From a virus, in IMG/VR virus record IMGVR_UViG_3300029787_000003, positions 65,236-129,235 of that record: a DNA stretch of 64,000 nt, one strand, 5' to 3'. Made by a program: the position numbers and the translations under genes. The notes below the pieces were generated by a model. That model worked only from the letters and a program-made list of their open reading frames with translations. It ran no database searches and was not told where the DNA came from. Each line of letters starts with the position of its first letter. Within the stretch, counting starts at the first letter, position 1. Of the stretch, positions 9,550-24,044 are shown piece by piece.

Positions 9550-9586
9550 GTATATGTGCGTAGGCATAAATTTTTGTTAAAATGTA

Positions 9587-9619
9587 TCTGTAAATACAGA
9601 CATTATTTGTCTATATAAT
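9587..9619 (+). promoter_or_regulatory. Promoter with an upstream palindrome
   Basis: A perfect 6-bp inverted repeat TCTGTA-AA-TACAGA at 9587-9600 precedes TATAAT at 9614-9619. The palindrome differs from the 17-site dyad. It probably drives the 49-aa gene at 9697, with a leader of about 75 bases. Confidence 0.5.
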
Positions 9620-9696
9620 AATGAAGAGTTAGGAAAAAACAAGATGATCTAAACCATCTTTGTTATGGCGACTAATTTCAATTTGGAGGTTCAATT

Positions 9697-9846
9697 ATGC
9701 ACAACTTAATTTCCTTTAATCAGTTAGCGGGAGATCACGATGATCACCATGACGATTTAATCAAAGAGTACTACGAGTGTCTGATTGAATGTGATCAAGA
9801 ACATCATGTATGTAAACGTATTTGTAAGGAGGTTTTAATTAACTAA
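9697..9846 (+). CDS. Conserved small acidic His/Cys-rich protein, 49 aa
   Basis: Begins MHNLISFNQLAGDHDDHHDDL and continues EYYECLIECDQEHHVCKRICKEV. It has four Cys and seven His, with Cys spaced as C-x3-C-x6-C-x3-C, which could bind metal. GGAGG lies 8 bases before the ATG. I recognise similar small proteins in cyanomyoviruses but know no function. Confidence 0.75.
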   Translation: MHNLISFNQLAGDHDDHHDDLIKEYYECLIECDQEHHVCKRICKEVLIN

Positions 9847-9923
9847 CACGTAAACATCACATAGGTTAAAGGACATGGACAAGTATTTACATCCACCTTA
9901 AAGCAAACATTCATTCATTCACT

Positions 9924-9952
9924 AAACCCTTGACTTCTACAGTCAGGGGTTT
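9924..9952 (+). terminator. Probable rho-independent terminator
   Basis: AAACCCTTGAC pairs with GTCAGGGGTTT (11 bp with one wobble) around a TTCTACA loop. The T stretch is mostly within the stem's 3' arm, so efficiency is uncertain. Confidence 0.6.
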
Positions 9953-9962
9953 TATAATATCA

Positions 9963-9970
9963 TATAAATA
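9963..9970 (+). promoter_or_regulatory. T4-type late promoter TATAAATA
   Basis: Exact late-promoter octamer. A TATAAT also occurs at 9953-9958, so the site may be used by two polymerase forms. The next ATG is only 8 bases downstream. Confidence 0.6.
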
Positions 9971-9977
9971 GGCTTTC

Positions 9978-10148
9978 ATGCAATATGCTTATGTAACAAT
10001 GAATGATAAACAAGCCGCAAAAAAACTTATAAAGATAGCAAGAAAGCATCCTAAATTATATAACAAAAGGGATGTATGGTATGCTAAAATGATTAAAAAG
10101 GAACTAAAGAAAAATGACTCAGGACTCACTAAAGATCAATCGAAATAA
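9978..10148 (+). CDS. Conserved small basic protein, 56 aa
   Basis: A lysine-rich helical protein (KQAAKKLIKIARKHPKLYNKRDVWYAKMIKKELKK). The ATG lies 8 bases after the late-promoter octamer, so either the mRNA is leaderless, or translation starts at the internal ATG at 9999, or transcription comes from further upstream. I recognise similar proteins in cyanomyoviruses. It overlaps the next gene by 35 bases. Confidence 0.65.
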   Translation: MQYAYVTMNDKQAAKKLIKIARKHPKLYNKRDVWYAKMIKKELKKNDSGLTKDQSK

Positions 10149-10272
10149 AGATGGTTCATTTGCTGTTGAGTGGGATAAAGAAGATCCTAACTGGAAATTT
10201 ATGAACACCTTGACTTCTAAAGAAATTCAAGATATTATACAAAAAGCAATGAAAGAAGATGGCCTTATCTGA
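10114..10272 (+). CDS. Conserved small phage protein, 52 aa
   Basis: MTQDSLKINRNKDGSFAVEWD-x-EDPNW, then LTSKEIQDIIQKAM. This combination of a short strand motif with a Trp-rich D-P-N-W and a C-terminal helix recurs in cyanomyoviruses. Function unknown. Its start overlaps the previous gene and its stop overlaps the next by 14 bases, so the three form a translationally coupled set. Confidence 0.7.
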   Translation: MTQDSLKINRNKDGSFAVEWDKEDPNWKFMNTLTSKEIQDIIQKAMKEDGLI

Positions 10273-19727: not shown

Positions 19728-19733
19728 CGGAAA

Positions 19734-19752
19734 TGTATCAGGCTTTGATACA
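19734..19752 (+). other. Hairpin after the 19320-19727 gene
   Basis: TGTATCA and TGATACA pair perfectly around GGCTT. It is followed by AAAAAG, so it is not a classical terminator on the plus strand, though it might end transcription weakly. Confidence 0.4.
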
Positions 19753-19784
19753 AAAAGTATCTAAAAATAGGTTTTAAATGGCTT

Positions 19785-19792
19785 TATAAATA
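19785..19792 (+). promoter_or_regulatory. T4-type late promoter TATAAATA, no gene downstream
   Basis: Exact octamer at the left edge of the 19.7-20.7 kb island, with more than 370 bases to the next ORF. It may produce a non-coding late transcript. Confidence 0.45.
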
Positions 19793-20037
19793 TAAAACTG
19801 TTAATTATCTGATTCTCAATAAGCATCTGTTATTGATAGTCAATAGTGTGTATTATTGATTCTCAATAGGTATCTAATATTCTCATAAGCATCTCTTAAA
19901 CATCTCATAAAGGGTCAGATCTTATGCAAGTTTAGCGAGCGTAGCATGAGACGAGCGTTTCGTCAAGGCCACGGATCGAAATTTTCCCAGAGAAGGCAGG
20001 TTTTATGTGTATTTCGTTACATTATAAGCACTTATAG

Positions 20038-20045
20038 TATAAATA
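20038..20045 (+). promoter_or_regulatory. T4-type late promoter TATAAATA within a palindrome
   Basis: The octamer sits inside AGTATA-AA-TATACT, a 6-bp inverted repeat. About 120 bases upstream of the 50-codon ORF. Confidence 0.4.
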
Positions 20046-20061
20046 TACTACATTGTGTTGA

Positions 20062-20097
20062 CTACGAGATCTTTACTACGAGATTTCACTACGAGAT
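20062..20097 (+). repeat. Three CTACGAGAT iterons
   Basis: CTACGAGAT at 20062, 20076 and 20089, spaced 14 and 13 bp, ending two bases before a TTGACA -35 box. A fourth exact copy is at 20185 inside the ORF, and a TACGAGAT at about 20318. Phasing slightly above one helical turn suggests a protein-binding array. Confidence 0.75.
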
Positions 20098-20099
20098 AC

Positions 20100-20128
20100 T
20101 TGACAATCTAGTCGAGATCATGTATAAT
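20100..20128 (+). promoter_or_regulatory. Perfect consensus sigma70 promoter
   Basis: TTGACA at 20100-20105, a 17-bp spacer and TATAAT at 20123-20128, preceded by three iterons. It ends 36 bases before the ATG of the 50-codon ORF. Confidence 0.75.
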
Positions 20129-20164
20129 CATTATATACAAAGCTCAATTCTCTACTAGATTCTC

Positions 20165-20317
20165 ATGGAAGATTACGTTTGGGACTACGAGATCTCCTGC
20201 CACGATCTCGACGAGAATTACACATACAATATGCAAGATGACATGCATGATCTCGACGAGGAATACGCACGAGATTCATACACATACACAGAGCTTGCAT
20301 ATGTACATTATGCGTAA
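20165..20317 (+). CDS. Tyr/Asp-rich 50-aa ORF in the repeat island
   Basis: An acidic peptide beginning MEDYVWDYEISCHDLDEN and containing HDLDE twice. It includes the CTACGAGAT unit in frame as DYEI and the CTCGACGAG unit twice as LDE. It has a consensus promoter 36 bases upstream and a terminator at 20433, so a transcript is likely; whether it is translated is less clear because no ribosome-binding site is visible. The acidic, aromatic composition would suit a small DNA-mimic or decoy, but this is speculation. Confidence 0.45.
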   Translation: MEDYVWDYEISCHDLDENYTYNMQDDMHDLDEEYARDSYTYTELAYVHYA

Positions 20318-20432
20318 TACGAGATATGTGTACATTCACGTACATACATAATGATACATTCGTACTAGACACACACATTCCTACATTATAGCACGTGGGT
20401 CATGTGATGGTGCATGGTGTGTGCAGGTTTAT

Positions 20433-20455
20433 GAGGTGTCACAACCTCTTTTTTT
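20433..20455 (+). terminator. Rho-independent terminator
   Basis: GAGGT and ACCTC pair around GTCACA, followed by seven T. It would end the transcript from the promoter at 20100, giving an RNA of roughly 320 bases. Confidence 0.7.
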
Positions 20456-20573
20456 ATTTCTTTTCATTCTCAATAAGGATTCGTTATTGATTCTCATTAA
20501 GTTTTTGTTATTGAGAATGTTACTTAGTGTTGCTAATAATATTTCATCGCAGGGGCCGTGACGAAGATTTTAT

Positions 20574-20596
20574 AGTTCGTACCCCCGAACTTTTTT
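20574..20596 (+). terminator. Rho-independent terminator
   Basis: AGTTCG and CGAACT pair around TACCCC, followed by a run of T. A second terminator at the right edge of the island. Between 20318 and 20643 I see no gene, only terminators and the ATTCTCAATAAG repeats. Confidence 0.75.
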
Positions 20597-20643
20597 CATA
20601 CCTTTATTATAACACCTCGGCCGACCTTTTCAACCAGCTGAGT

Positions 20644-20699
20644 GCCACTAATTTAAGTGTCACATGAAATCCCCATTCGTGGTGGATCTGGTTTATATT
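20644..20699 (+). promoter_or_regulatory. Dyad-type promoter (site 7)
   Basis: GCCACTA-N4-AAGTGTC at 20644-20661; -10 TATATT at 20694 (offset 50), followed by AAGTGTATG. The spacer shares CCCCATTCGTG with that of site 11, suggesting duplication. Confidence 0.55.
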
Positions 20700-20705
20700 A
20701 AGTGT

Positions 20706-20924
20706 ATGGAAAATTTTTTAACGATCAACGGGAAATCTTATTCTCACAAACAGATAAATCTGATTCGTGATTTTTTCACGGACGATCAGTGGACTGTCAT
20801 AGACGGTGCGTTGAGTGAGTTCAAGGATCATGATCCAGATTATCTTGAGGAGGTCTACGGATCTGAAAACATTCTCACGGAAACTTTGGATATCATCTCT
20901 GAAGTTTACCGTAGTGCCTACTAA
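20706..20924 (+). CDS. Hypothetical acidic protein, 72 aa
   Basis: Begins MENFLTINGKSYSHKQINLI and is acidic and helical. The frame is open to an ATG at 20664, but that lies inside dyad promoter 7; ATG 20706 is six bases after its -10, so an mRNA from that promoter would be leaderless. Transcription from upstream is the alternative. The end of the gene overlaps the dyad of promoter 8. Confidence 0.6.
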   Translation: MENFLTINGKSYSHKQINLIRDFFTDDQWTVIDGALSEFKDHDPDYLEEVYGSENILTETLDIISEVYRSAY

Positions 20925-20972
20925 CAAACTGGCACACCACCTCTTGCAAAAGAGGGCGGCCTAGATTATATT
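20916..20972 (+). promoter_or_regulatory. Dyad-type promoter (site 8)
   Basis: GCCTACT-N4-AACTGGC at 20916-20933 covers the preceding stop codon; -10 TATATT at 20967 (offset 51). A CCTCTT/AAGAGG hairpin lies between. It leaves a leader of about 105 bases before the gene at 21083, with ACGGT/ACCGT and GGAT/ATCC hairpins possible. Confidence 0.55.
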
Positions 20973-21082
20973 AGAAATGTGGCAGGATCTATCGTAGTTA
21001 TGACACGGTTGGATTTATCCGTAAAAGATACCGTTAGGATCATAGAACGTAAGACCACACGCAAACCACACCACAAAAACAC

Positions 21083-21214
21083 ATGGAATACGAAGACCTC
21101 TTGTTGCAAGAATTGATGGAAACACCTGGTGAACTCTACGACCTGCCAGAAATGAAGCAGGATGACAAGTTCGATGTTGAATCGTATATTGAGAAATCCG
21201 ATTTTACGTGGTGA
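21083..21214 (+). CDS. Hypothetical acidic protein, 43 aa
   Basis: MEYEDLLLQELMETPGELYD, then a short acidic tail ending SDFTW. Helical. Preceded by CACAAAAACAC as in the conserved leader pattern but without GGAG. Small size limits certainty. Confidence 0.55.
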   Translation: MEYEDLLLQELMETPGELYDLPEMKQDDKFDVESYIEKSDFTW

Positions 21215-21231
21215 TCAAATAATATTAAACA

Positions 21232-21369
21232 ATGAAATCACAAGTAACCCTAAAAAACACCAAAGCAGAAATCTTTCAAGCCTTTTTACAAAATAGAGAC
21301 GCATTGGAGGAGAGGAACTGTTTAGTTATCCTTAGTATAGTTCTTTTTTGTTTCGTTTGTCTCACGTAG
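21232..21369 (+). CDS. Small protein with C-terminal membrane segment, 45 aa
   Basis: MKSQVTLKNTKAEIFQAFLQ, a charged linker with EERN, then a hydrophobic CLVILSIVLFCFVCLT end. The start TLKNTKAEIFQA is a pattern I recognise from cyanomyovirus small proteins. Probably a tail-anchored membrane protein. Confidence 0.65.
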   Translation: MKSQVTLKNTKAEIFQAFLQNRDALEERNCLVILSIVLFCFVCLT

Positions 21370-21371
21370 TA

Positions 21372-21426
21372 GACAGTTATTAAAGTGGCCTATCTGTACA
21401 CACAGAGGGTCATTTTTTGTTATAAT
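21372..21426 (+). promoter_or_regulatory. Dyad-type promoter (site 9)
   Basis: GACAGTT-N4-AAGTGGC starts two bases after the preceding stop; -10 TATAAT at 21421 (offset 49). A weak CTGT/ACAG hairpin with a T run lies between and may terminate the upstream transcript. Confidence 0.65.
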
Positions 21427-21454
21427 GAGTATGTACACAAAAACACATTAGTAA

Positions 21455-21619
21455 ATGAGTTACACAAGAAACGAACGAGCTCTGTTAAATCTACAGAACG
21501 ATATCAACAAATTATTTGATTATGTTGGTGAAGAAAACGACCAAATTCCATTCACCTCGTTAAGAACATTTGAAAAGGCTTGTGTTGCATTCGTTAACGC
21601 TATTGAGGTTGAGTCATGA
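21455..21619 (+). CDS. Hypothetical protein, 54 aa
   Basis: MSYTRNERALLNLQNDINKL, then FDYVGEENDQIPFTSLRTFEKACVAFVNAIEV: two helices. Starts 28 bases after the -10 of promoter 9 and is ATGA-coupled to the next gene. Not recognised. Confidence 0.65.
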   Translation: MSYTRNERALLNLQNDINKLFDYVGEENDQIPFTSLRTFEKACVAFVNAIEVES

Positions 21620-21882
21620 TAGGTACCGCACCAACAATGAGAATGTATGAGTCAATACACCTTGGCCATACATTTTGGATAGACGATGACGGCCTGTTCA
21701 TGAGTTGCCCAACTTTCAAGGATGGATCCGTGGATATGGAAAATGCGGTGAGCGTGTACGACTGGGAGAACTGGGAAGAGGCCCACCCACATTTACCACA
21801 CTTAATGCACGTGAACCAGATTTGTATACTAAAGAGAGACTCAGATAAGATAGACTATTATTCAAAATTATTCGCACAATAG
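21616..21882 (+). CDS. Hypothetical protein, 88 aa
   Basis: HLGHTFWIDDDGLFMSCPTF, then MENAVSVYDWENWEEAHPHL and ICILKRDSDKIDYYSKLF. A strand-rich N-terminus suggests a small beta domain. It uses more GC-ending codons than genes before 19 kb. Coupled to the 54-aa gene. Confidence 0.65.
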   Translation: MIGTAPTMRMYESIHLGHTFWIDDDGLFMSCPTFKDGSVDMENAVSVYDWENWEEAHPHLPHLMHVNQICILKRDSDKIDYYSKLFAQ

Positions 21883-21884
21883 TG

Positions 21885-21940
21885 GCCAGTAATTAAACTG
21901 TCCACCATCACCCCACTATCACCTGATCCTAGGTTATAGT
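21885..21940 (+). promoter_or_regulatory. Dyad-type promoter (site 10)
   Basis: GCCAGTA-N4-AACTGTC begins two bases after the preceding stop; the -10 TATAGT is at 21935 (offset 50), followed by AAGTACATACAACAAAAGGA. One of the closest matches to the downstream consensus, with a one-base -10 variation. Confidence 0.65.
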
Positions 21941-21967
21941 AAGTACATACAACAAAAGGAGCAAATT

Positions 21968-22192
21968 ATGCAACTCACCCCAATTGCGTCAAACATGACA
22001 CAAGTTGATCTCAACGGTTTTCAAGTTTTATTTTCATATAGAACCCCTGTTGCCTGTATATCTGATGATAACCAATATTATAGAACAGAAAAGTTTTGGT
22101 CAGTTACCACCAGTAGACACATTAACAAATGGTTAGATGGTGAAGTAGCAGCAGAGCAACCCCAAACATATTTCGACAATTTGGCCAATTAA
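21968..22192 (+). CDS. Conserved small phage protein, 74 aa
   Basis: MQLTPIASNMTQVDLNGFQV, then LFSYRTPVACI, TEKFWSVTTSRHINKWL. I recognise this from cyanomyoviruses (IASNMTQVEL, LFSYKTPVA, RTEKxWSxTTxRHIxKWL). A small beta-rich protein of unknown function. AAAGGAG precedes the ATG. Single gene between promoters 10 and 11. Confidence 0.8.
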   Translation: MQLTPIASNMTQVDLNGFQVLFSYRTPVACISDDNQYYRTEKFWSVTTSRHINKWLDGEVAAEQPQTYFDNLAN

Positions 22193-22239
22193 CAGGCTGT
22201 CCACTATAGCCCCATTCGTGATGCGTTTGGGGTTATAAT
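22184..22239 (+). promoter_or_regulatory. Dyad-type promoter (site 11)
   Basis: GCCAATT-N4-GGCTGTC overlaps the preceding stop; -10 TATAAT at 22234 (offset 50), followed by AAGTATGTACACAAATGAAGG. A CCCCA/TGGGG hairpin lies between. Confidence 0.65.
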
Positions 22240-22265
22240 AAGTATGTACACAAATGAAGGACTCT

Positions 22266-22400
22266 ATGACCTACACTACCGACCAATTCAACAAAGACGT
22301 TTCAGAGTTGAGAAGATTGATAAAAATGTGCGACGATTTACAGAAGAAGCAAGATAAAAACACAACTTACTTAATAAACCAATTCAACGGAGGTAAGTAA
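22266..22400 (+). CDS. Hypothetical coiled-coil protein, 44 aa
   Basis: MTYTTDQFNKDVSELRRLIK, then MCDDLQKKQDKNTTYLINQF: one long charged helix. Followed three bases later by the KxDG protein gene, for which its tail GGAGG (22389-22393) serves as the ribosome-binding site. Confidence 0.6.
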   Translation: MTYTTDQFNKDVSELRRLIKMCDDLQKKQDKNTTYLINQFNGGK

Positions 22401-22403
22401 TCA

Positions 22404-23336
22404 ATGAAAAATATACACTTAGAACACCCCGAAGACACAATTTTAACAGGAGATCTATCCGTATTAGATGCGTTAGAGTTAGAGCAGGAAATATCCGTCA
22501 AGTATGACGGAGCTCCCGCTATCGTATGGGGAAAGAACCCAGCCACAGGCCGTCAGTTCGTAGGCACGAAATCCGTATTTAATAAAGTTAAAATCAAGAT
22601 TTGTGAAAGCCCAGCTGATGTAATGACTCATTACGAGGGCCACCCTGTTCAAGATATTTTACTTGAGTGTTTGAAATACTTACCAGACACAGAAAATATC
22701 TATCAAGGTGATTTTATCGGCTTCGGTGGTGAAACAGAATATCAGCCAAATACTTTGGTTTATGATTTTGATGATGAAGTAAAAGAACAAATAATAGTAG
22801 CTCCACATACACAGTACACCACAACAACAACTTTAAAAGATGCAGAAGCAAAACCAATTAAGTCTAATCTTGACGGCACTTTTGACTGTTTATTCATTAA
22901 GCCTAACGCAGGTACTAGTATAGGCCAATACAATAGATACGGATCTAAGTTTGATTTTAAAAACTATCTTAAGTTCGTTAAACAGATGGCCAGCATGGTT
23001 ACGTTTTTAACTGCAACAGATGCAAAAGCCATGAAAACTGAATTAAATAGGTATATCAGAAATGGCCATTATATTCACCCCGAAGATTTCGGTAATGAGT
23101 TATTAATTTCGTTGTGGGTGAGTGTTAAAAACTTAAAGATGATGGCTTTGAGCCAGTGCCGTCATAGGTGGGGCCCTGATGCGTACTTGATGGATGAGGG
23201 AGGAAACCCAGAGCTTATTGATGCTGAGGGCTACGTAATTCATAATAAAATAGGATCATACAAATTAATCGACAGAGAATGGTTTAGCCATGCAAACTTT
23301 AACAACACCAGATGGGCCAATGCGAAAACTAACTGA
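22404..23336 (+). CDS. Conserved phage protein with KxDG motif (DUF6267-like)
   Basis: A 310-residue protein with SVKYDGAPAIVWG at about residues 31-43. KYDG is the active-site motif I (KxDG) of the covalent nucleotidyltransferase superfamily of ligases and capping enzymes. YQGDFIGFGGE (about 99) and DGTFDCLFIKPNAG (about 157) could be motifs III and IV/V. That would make it a ligase-like adenylyltransferase; phage proteins of this appearance are often left as DUF6267. A stand-alone catalytic domain without a clear C-terminal OB fold. Activity is inference. Confidence 0.65.
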   Translation: MKNIHLEHPEDTILTGDLSVLDALELEQEISVKYDGAPAIVWGKNPATGRQFVGTKSVFNKVKIKICESPADVMTHYEGHPVQDILLECLKYLPDTENIYQGDFIGFGGETEYQPNTLVYDFDDEVKEQIIVAPHTQYTTTTTLKDAEAKPIKSNLDGTFDCLFIKPNAGTSIGQYNRYGSKFDFKNYLKFVKQMASMVTFLTATDAKAMKTELNRYIRNGHYIHPEDFGNELLISLWVSVKNLKMMALSQCRHRWGPDAYLMDEGGNPELIDAEGYVIHNKIGSYKLIDREWFSHANFNNTRWANAKTN

Positions 23337-23586
23337 CACGGAATTTAACTATCTTAAGGAGCTCTACGTTGACAGAATCGTAGAGGGCATGATGACAAAA
23401 GACTTAGTTCGTTATGTTATGGAACGCGAGCAAGAGTGGATCGACTCTTTAACCTATACTGAGGCTATGGATGAGTTGGAAAGTTATTTTGACGAAATGT
23501 TCACGGATACTGTAGAGGAAGCCCTAGCCGATGTCAAGGAATTTGGGCCAGATTACAAACCGTCCACTGAAGACACACGTTTCTAG
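23320..23586 (+). CDS. Conserved small phage protein, 88 aa
   Basis: MRKLTDTEFNYLKELYVDRIVEGM, then VRYVMEREQEWIDSL and DELESYFDEMFTDTV. All-helical, acidic. An upstream in-frame ATG at 23290 exists; 23320 gives a start like that of the 15690-15980 protein (MKQLTQQQ, LITQYIEIVVDSM), with which it appears paralogous. The gene overlaps the KxDG protein gene by 17 bases and contains dyad 12 at its end. Confidence 0.65.
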   Translation: MRKLTDTEFNYLKELYVDRIVEGMMTKDLVRYVMEREQEWIDSLTYTEAMDELESYFDEMFTDTVEEALADVKEFGPDYKPSTEDTRF

Positions 23587-23601
23587 CCAATGCGTTATAA
23601 T
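23547..23601 (+). promoter_or_regulatory. Dyad-type promoter (site 12)
   Basis: GCCAGAT-N4-AACCGTC, a weaker dyad inside the upstream coding end; -10 TATAAT at 23596 (offset 49), followed by AAGTACATACACAAAAGGAT. Confidence 0.6.
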
Positions 23602-23627
23602 AAGTACATACACAAAAGGATTTCTTT

Positions 23628-24044
23628 ATGACTTCATTAGACACAACACTAGGCACTTCAGAGTTAACCGAAGAGTTAATTAAAGAGTACATAGAGGATG
23701 AGGGCTATGAGAGAGAAGATATGGAGGAATTCATCAAGGAGCACGGTGACAGGGCTTTCCAGTTAGATTATCAGGACTATTTGGCCGCAATTGATGATAT
23801 GGGCTCTGAAGTAGTCGAAGCATTTATTGAGGAGTTTTCAATCAATGACGTAAGTAGCTGCCGTGATGCGTACATGGGCTGTTACAGATCAGGTGCAGAA
23901 TTTGCAGAGCAAATGGCCTCCGACTGTGGCGAAGTGATGAACCCGATGGCCAGCTGGATAGAGATCGACTGGGAGAAGAGCTGGGAAAATTTATCCTACG
24001 ACTATTGCGAATACGACGGACACATATTCAGCCAGTATTATTAG
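23628..24044 (+). CDS. ArdA-like antirestriction protein
   Basis: A 138-residue, very acidic protein. The block EEFSINDVSSCRDAYMGCYRSGAEFAEQMASDCGE (about residues 65-100), then SWIEIDWEKSWENLSYDYCEYDGHIF to the C-terminus, follows the pattern of the ArdA family (F-x-x-AYxGxYxSxxEFAExxA, then YIDWExxxxxL and a final G-x-x-F). ArdA proteins mimic B-form DNA and block type I restriction enzymes. It is the only gene between dyad promoters 12 and 13, so it is probably regulated individually. Typical ArdA proteins are about 165 aa, so the N-terminal domain may be reduced. Confidence 0.75.
   Translation: MTSLDTTLGTSELTEELIKEYIEDEGYEREDMEEFIKEHGDRAFQLDYQDYLAAIDDMGSEVVEAFIEEFSINDVSSCRDAYMGCYRSGAEFAEQMASDCGEVMNPMASWIEIDWEKSWENLSYDYCEYDGHIFSQYY

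Follow-up and report, generated by a model that had tools for sequence, protein, structure and literature searches.

A conserved early-control region and candidate replication origin in T4-like cyanophages

A stretch of roughly 900 bases in the genome of a marine cyanobacterial virus, which had looked like empty space, is a conserved control region shared with many related viruses; the best reading is that it governs early control in T4-like cyanophages and most probably acts as an origin of replication as well. This reading is held at a probability of about one half, its main rival being a module that acts in transcription only. The island lies in a window of 64,000 nucleotides (the whole stretch of DNA analysed), itself part of a 152,062-base virus record from a T4-like cyanophage, upstream of the genes for gp25 (27995), gp6 (28398), gp7 (30340) and gp8 (46286). 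The predicted anatomy of the island is well supported, and the overall observation of an earlier note on this DNA was confirmed, with every element that it had listed found in its place. Its remark that gene density elsewhere is close to 100 percent is roughly true, although a similar gap occurs at 9550-10258, apparently with a short ORF inside.

The layout of the island recurs in P-SSM2, S-SKS1, S-T4, S-SRM01, a single-cell virus contig and approximately 100 metagenomic IMG/VR loci. BLAST with the island matched pieces of it in P-SSM2, P-SSM5 and one single-cell virus contig, and the wider collection was assembled from the flanking gene, which gave 28 loci, and from one version of the acidic protein described below, which gave 80 more. 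The search for the island in related genomes proposed in the earlier note returned a shared layout, and intact genes decaying in the same place were not found. A scan of genome contigs for the locus gave one match, a contig filed under a Flavobacteriales MAG (L143, NZRO01000035.1) that carries the cyanophage locus and is probably a mis-binned phage contig. Endonuclease genes, GIY-YIG-like (by eye) or HNH, adjoin the locus or lie within a few kb of it in L026, L102 and S-SRM01 (91021-91458), and a motif, AACTG[GT]CACA, recurs before small early genes in the window (20618-24000) and in P-SSM2 (66.6-68.8 kb), often in an inverted repeat. No description of the locus was found in the literature searched, which lay mostly outside subscription journals.

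The island contains divergent sigma70-type promoters, P_L and P_R. The leftward promoter P_L (19938-19966, minus strand) comprises a -35 element TTGACG (19966-19961) and a -10 element TACGCT (19943-19938), separated by a 17-nt spacer ending in TGn, within a conserved block spanning 19916-19967. The consensus over 57 sequences was TTGACR-N17-TAnnnT, at a spacing of 17, with TAnnnT present in 50/57 and TGn in 52/57; because the sequences were collected by their -35 element, the conservation of that element is built in, whereas that of the -10 element and of the spacing is not. The -10 element in the window is weak by consensus, and a perfect TTGACA-N17-TATAAT is found as P_L in several relatives (e.g. 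L068, L070 and L093). On sequence evidence only, P_L points leftward into an AT-rich tract in the 57 sequences. The rightward promoter P_R (20100-20128, plus strand) is, as previously noted, a perfect TTGACA-N17-TATAAT with a 12/12 match, and its spacer contains the palindrome ATCTAGTCGAGAT (20106-20118). Another promoter-like TAnnnT stands right after the stop codon of the ORF downstream of P_R in 47/62 relatives, and is not present in the window.

This ORF, a 50-codon frame already recognised in the earlier note, encodes a conserved acidic protein of 50 amino acids (20165-20317, plus strand; ATG at 20165, stop at 20317). A hidden Markov model (HMM) found it in 100 loci, representing 64 distinct ORF sequences, and the pooled pN/pS was 0.18 (216 pairs, a large share of which are related). 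Family members include PSSM2_098 of P-SSM2 and SWZG_00191 of S-SKS1, and the corresponding ORFs in S-T4 and S-SRM01 are not annotated as such. PSSM2_098 (T4-GC 94) is of the same protein family and is accompanied by the same palindromes, P_L and small RNA as in the window, but it is annotated only as hypothetical, and its promoters, palindromes and RNA were not described in the papers searched. At one locus (L009) the protein is kept with different codons and without the palindromes, which indicates that selection acts on the protein itself. Pfam, PHROGs, NCBIfam and PADLOC contained no significant match to the acidic protein. For searching, alignment A1 proved too variable, and a single sequence took its place. 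An AlphaFold run, from which three rows from annotated records were left out, gave a mean pLDDT of 60 and a pTM of 0.19, and for this reason no fold is claimed. A second conserved small ORF, with the pattern MxAQKRxVRVTLDIECYDDLDLxxINWxxxLxLEGDE, was observed just 3' of the acidic-protein gene in freshwater relatives, S-SKS1 and S-T4, and was not found in the window or P-SSM2.

Overlying the promoter and the gene is an array of palindromic sites. Three CTACGAGAT half-site repeats, identified from repeat counts and shuffles, begin at 20062, 20076 and 20089 (20062-20097, plus strand), the third ending two bases before the TTGACA of P_R, as the earlier note had described; a fourth, which it missed, lies inside the ORF (20185-20193, plus strand). 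These four copies in 64 kb compare with 0.23 expected, and the two repeat families of the island, ATTCTCAATAAG and CTACGAGAT, each exceeded all 2000 dinucleotide shuffles of it, in agreement with the earlier claim of two such families. The supposed iterons are half-sites belonging to the 13-bp palindrome ATCTCGWCGAGAT. Of approximately 60 relatives, most have one palindrome within the P_R spacer and a second immediately ahead of the ATG, with others upstream and inside the ORF, where in the window the sites ATCTCGACGAGAA (20205-20217) and ATCTCGACGAGGA (20250-20262) code for DLDE and DLDEE, respectively. The palindrome is built into the coding sequence: LDE was encoded as CTCGACGAG in 82/101 cases and ARD as GCACGAGAT in 43/59, and in five window genes CTC accounts for only 2/57 leucine codons and CGA for 0/34 arginine codons. 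The palindrome core was restricted to the early zone in 8/8 other genomes, in seven of which there were no control matches, and no RHH_1 protein for the palindrome was found in five phage genomes. In S-T4 (MH412654) the palindrome occurs at 2777 and 174346, a distance of 171.6 kb, which suggests that the two ends of the record carry a duplicated stretch, and DSL-LC03 (L144) has AATCTAGTTCA where relatives have the palindrome ATCTCGACGAGAT, as well as just before the start codons of small genes.

Two features of the array fit less easily with operators. Up to three palindrome clusters occur within approximately 8 kb in some genomes, some of them at gene ends rather than promoters, and isolated half-sites nearly all point the same way (106 to 4), a bias left unexplained by a simple operator model. 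Both speak for a DNA-organising or segregation site, at which the palindromes nucleate a phage DNA-binding protein marking the early zone and transcription is secondary. However, the tight placement of palindromes within the P_R spacer and immediately ahead of the ATG suits operators better, no partition genes were identified, and the retention of the gene without palindromes in L009 also argues against this alternative, which is considered improbable.

Transcription from P_R would end at an intrinsic terminator (20433-20455, plus strand; hairpin 20433-20448) with a stable predicted fold (z -3.2), resembling hairpins in L006 and L045. Two terminators had been proposed in the earlier note; both hairpins are present, but the second (20574-20591) is better read as part of a minus-strand RNA. 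Similarly, the boundaries of the regulated small RNA of about 320 bases suggested there look right as those of a transcript, but this transcript encodes the conserved protein, and the small-RNA candidate lies on the other strand, at 20537-20594. This candidate, of approximately 58 nt (model R1; cmsearch E 5e-19 in its own genome), is preceded by a predicted promoter, P_C (TTGAAA-N16-TATAAT, 20606-20633, minus strand, 11/12 match), and in relatives by a TAnnnT just upstream. An alignment of 25 sequences contained two-sided changes in 5/5 core stem pairs, with a covariation score above every shuffle and every slid control. Because the first alignment had been collected with a stem requirement, the collection was repeated without one, and the stem was kept in 25/25 homologues, the sole stray match being unrelated coding DNA. 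Copies outside the model were found in P-SSM2 (66,478-66,546; E 3.5e-12), DSL-LC03 (E 4e-23) and L143 (E 3.5e-24). The candidate is antisense in orientation to the acidic-protein gene in every locus carrying both, and its G-U pairs favour the minus strand. No Rfam family exceeded its gathering cut-off at 20537-20594, with matches at chance level only. A loop pseudoknot (GG with CC) was compatible with all rows of the alignment but lacked covariation, and is not claimed; resemblances to a Fur box and a hammerhead were noted by eye. The cfrI antisense RNA at psbA of phage S-PM2 (PMC5931967) is likewise a phage-encoded non-coding RNA of a T4-like cyanophage, but it is antisense to psbA, whereas the RNA proposed here is an intergenic hairpin RNA at a different locus. 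The covarying stem, together with purifying selection on the ORF and promoter conservation, contradicts the view that the island consists of decayed genes or neutral spacer, for which the scarcity of ORFs and the lack of a database match for the protein could be cited; this view is refuted by conservation and retains a negligible likelihood.

To the left of P_L lies the AT-rich repeat tract (19728-19905), a putative DNA unwinding element containing the left ATTCTCAATAAG copies and TATTGA-NNN-TCAATA dyads. In the window, the 200 bp to the left of P_L are 72.5% AT, within the top 1.1% of its own locus, and across 50 loci the same 200 bases had a median of 74% AT, compared with 60% for the loci as a whole (top ~1%), with tandem repeats in the tract in 48 loci. 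By melting energy over 150 bp the window tract is about the tenth easiest site to open in 152 kb (z 2.5), and that of P-SSM2 is only mildly easy (z 1.6-1.9). Also within the tract is a late-promoter-like block, TTTTAAATggCTTTATAAATATAAAACTGTT (19772-19802, plus strand), built on an ATAAATA core, which is near-identical in marine relatives (L002, L006, L007, L009, L010) and S-SKS1, and of which P-SSM2 keeps the core. The two late-promoter octamers reported in the earlier note correspond to cores at 19786, within this longer block, and 20039. A candidate leftward terminator at the block was dropped, as its stem is broken in P-SSM2. The ATAAATA core is depleted in the window as a whole (1-64000), with 10 found and 37.8 expected from shuffles.

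The ATTCTCAATAAG repeats bracket the island. By repeat search the left copies lie at 19812-19823 and 19859-19870 (plus strand), and the right copies at 20466-20518, where a 12-bp inverted repeat also pairs 20465-20476 with 20508-20519; matches are exact at 19812 and 20466 and carry one mismatch at 19859, 20490 and 20507 (minus strand). ATTCTCAATAA has three copies in the whole 152-kb record, all within the island. The suggestion of a remnant mobile island can draw on these repeats, which flank the island on both sides and within the genome are confined to it. However, many relatives share the layout, none of those examined showed an empty site, the island contains no transposase or integrase, and the bracketing repeats are missing in P-SSM2, with different repeats standing in for them in other relatives; homing endonuclease genes occur beside the locus in some relatives and not in the window. 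The mobile reading is thus largely refuted and is given almost no weight, and the island appears to be neither decayed nor mobile.

A replication origin, one of the roles considered in the earlier note, gains support, real though indirect, from AT-rich repeats beside a conserved promoter and from clusters of DnaA boxes in several relatives. The 9-mer TTTTCCACA is described as a cyanobacteria-specific DnaA box (PMC5987646). With similar loci grouped into 20 non-redundant clusters, each counted once, TTTTCCACA or TTATCCACA occurred 12 times in the 14 kb upstream, compared with three times in 159 kb elsewhere (approximately 45-fold, p 3e-11). In DSL-LC03, 7/10 genome-wide copies of TTTTCCACA fall inside 460 bp at the locus. 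Boxes were found in only 5/20 of the clusters, and they are absent from the islands of the window and P-SSM2; a dependence on DnaA, if present, would thus belong to the relatives. GC skew provides no confirmation of an origin, and the cumulative-skew check put forward in the earlier note gave no usable origin signal in four genomes: there was no sign switch at the island in its own record or in P-SSM2, where skew is positive on both sides, and no lasting switch in DSL-LC03 or G001. A detrended skew maximum in P-SSM2 at 65,744 was not significant (P 0.075).

Known origins offer partial parallels. Minimal T4 oriF and oriG consist of a promoter and an A+T-rich unwinding element (PMC3016281), and the island likewise has a promoter adjoining an A+T-rich tract, but the T4 promoters are MotA middle promoters, whereas those predicted in the island are of sigma70 type. 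Both T4 oriE (AF158101 at 79,355; repEA, repEB) and the island lie upstream of gene 6 and gene 7 baseplate genes; small early genes and direct repeats are also common to both, and the GIY-YIG endonuclease gene next to oriE (segC) seems to have a counterpart in some of the relatives. However, oriE is situated within gene 5, whereas the island is intergenic and is followed by 8 kb of small genes before gp25, and the acidic protein gave no alignment with T4 RepEA or RepEB at E <= 100. Cyanobacterial oriC (PMC5987646) shares clusters of the same 9-mer with several relatives, notably DSL-LC03, but no dnaA or dnaN was found beside the island locus, in addition to the lack of boxes in two of the islands. 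The T4 and cyanobacterial parallels are resemblances. In the papers searched, neither an origin nor an early-control switch had been mapped by experiment in T4-like cyanophages, and one review gives only a predicted single theta origin, in Syn9.

The principal alternative is an autoregulated early host-takeover module made up of the promoters, palindromes, acidic protein and small RNA, in which the AT-rich repeats serve as regulator sites or as spacer; replication would then start elsewhere. All of the promoter, operator and gene evidence stands without an origin, the palindrome covers P_R and, in most relatives, the sequence before the ATG, the promoter-like element after the ORF stop is widespread, and GC skew lacks an origin signal. 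This alternative does not by itself explain why DnaA-box clusters appear at the same place in several lineages, nor why a strong, conserved promoter should read into AT-rich repeats when the marine relatives lack a conserved leftward gene, and it is considered a serious possibility, though less likely than not.

A possible sequence of events under the combined early-control and origin reading is that host RNA polymerase fires from the island promoters soon after infection, and that a dimeric protein occupies the palindromes and lowers the activity of P_R. Transcription from P_L would enter the AT-rich repeat tract and help to open it, and may prime replication as in T4 oriF and oriG, with host DnaA boxes in or beside the tract in some lineages and other repeats in that place in the window. 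The acidic protein could act early, with replication or the host polymerase as its possible target. More tentatively still, the locus may combine in one unit, from marine to freshwater phages, a T4-like cyanophage origin with host DnaA boxes in several lineages, a gene whose codons also form an operator array, and an undescribed phage small RNA.

The locus provides one testable address for an origin and early control in the cultured phages P-SSM2, S-SKS1, S-SRM01 and DSL-LC03, and brings to light a conserved microprotein family and a candidate family of RNAs that shows covariation and is unmatched in Rfam. It also presents an unusual overlap of protein code and palindromic DNA signal in one sequence. 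Functional DnaA boxes would mean that the host initiator is recruited by some lytic T4-like phages.
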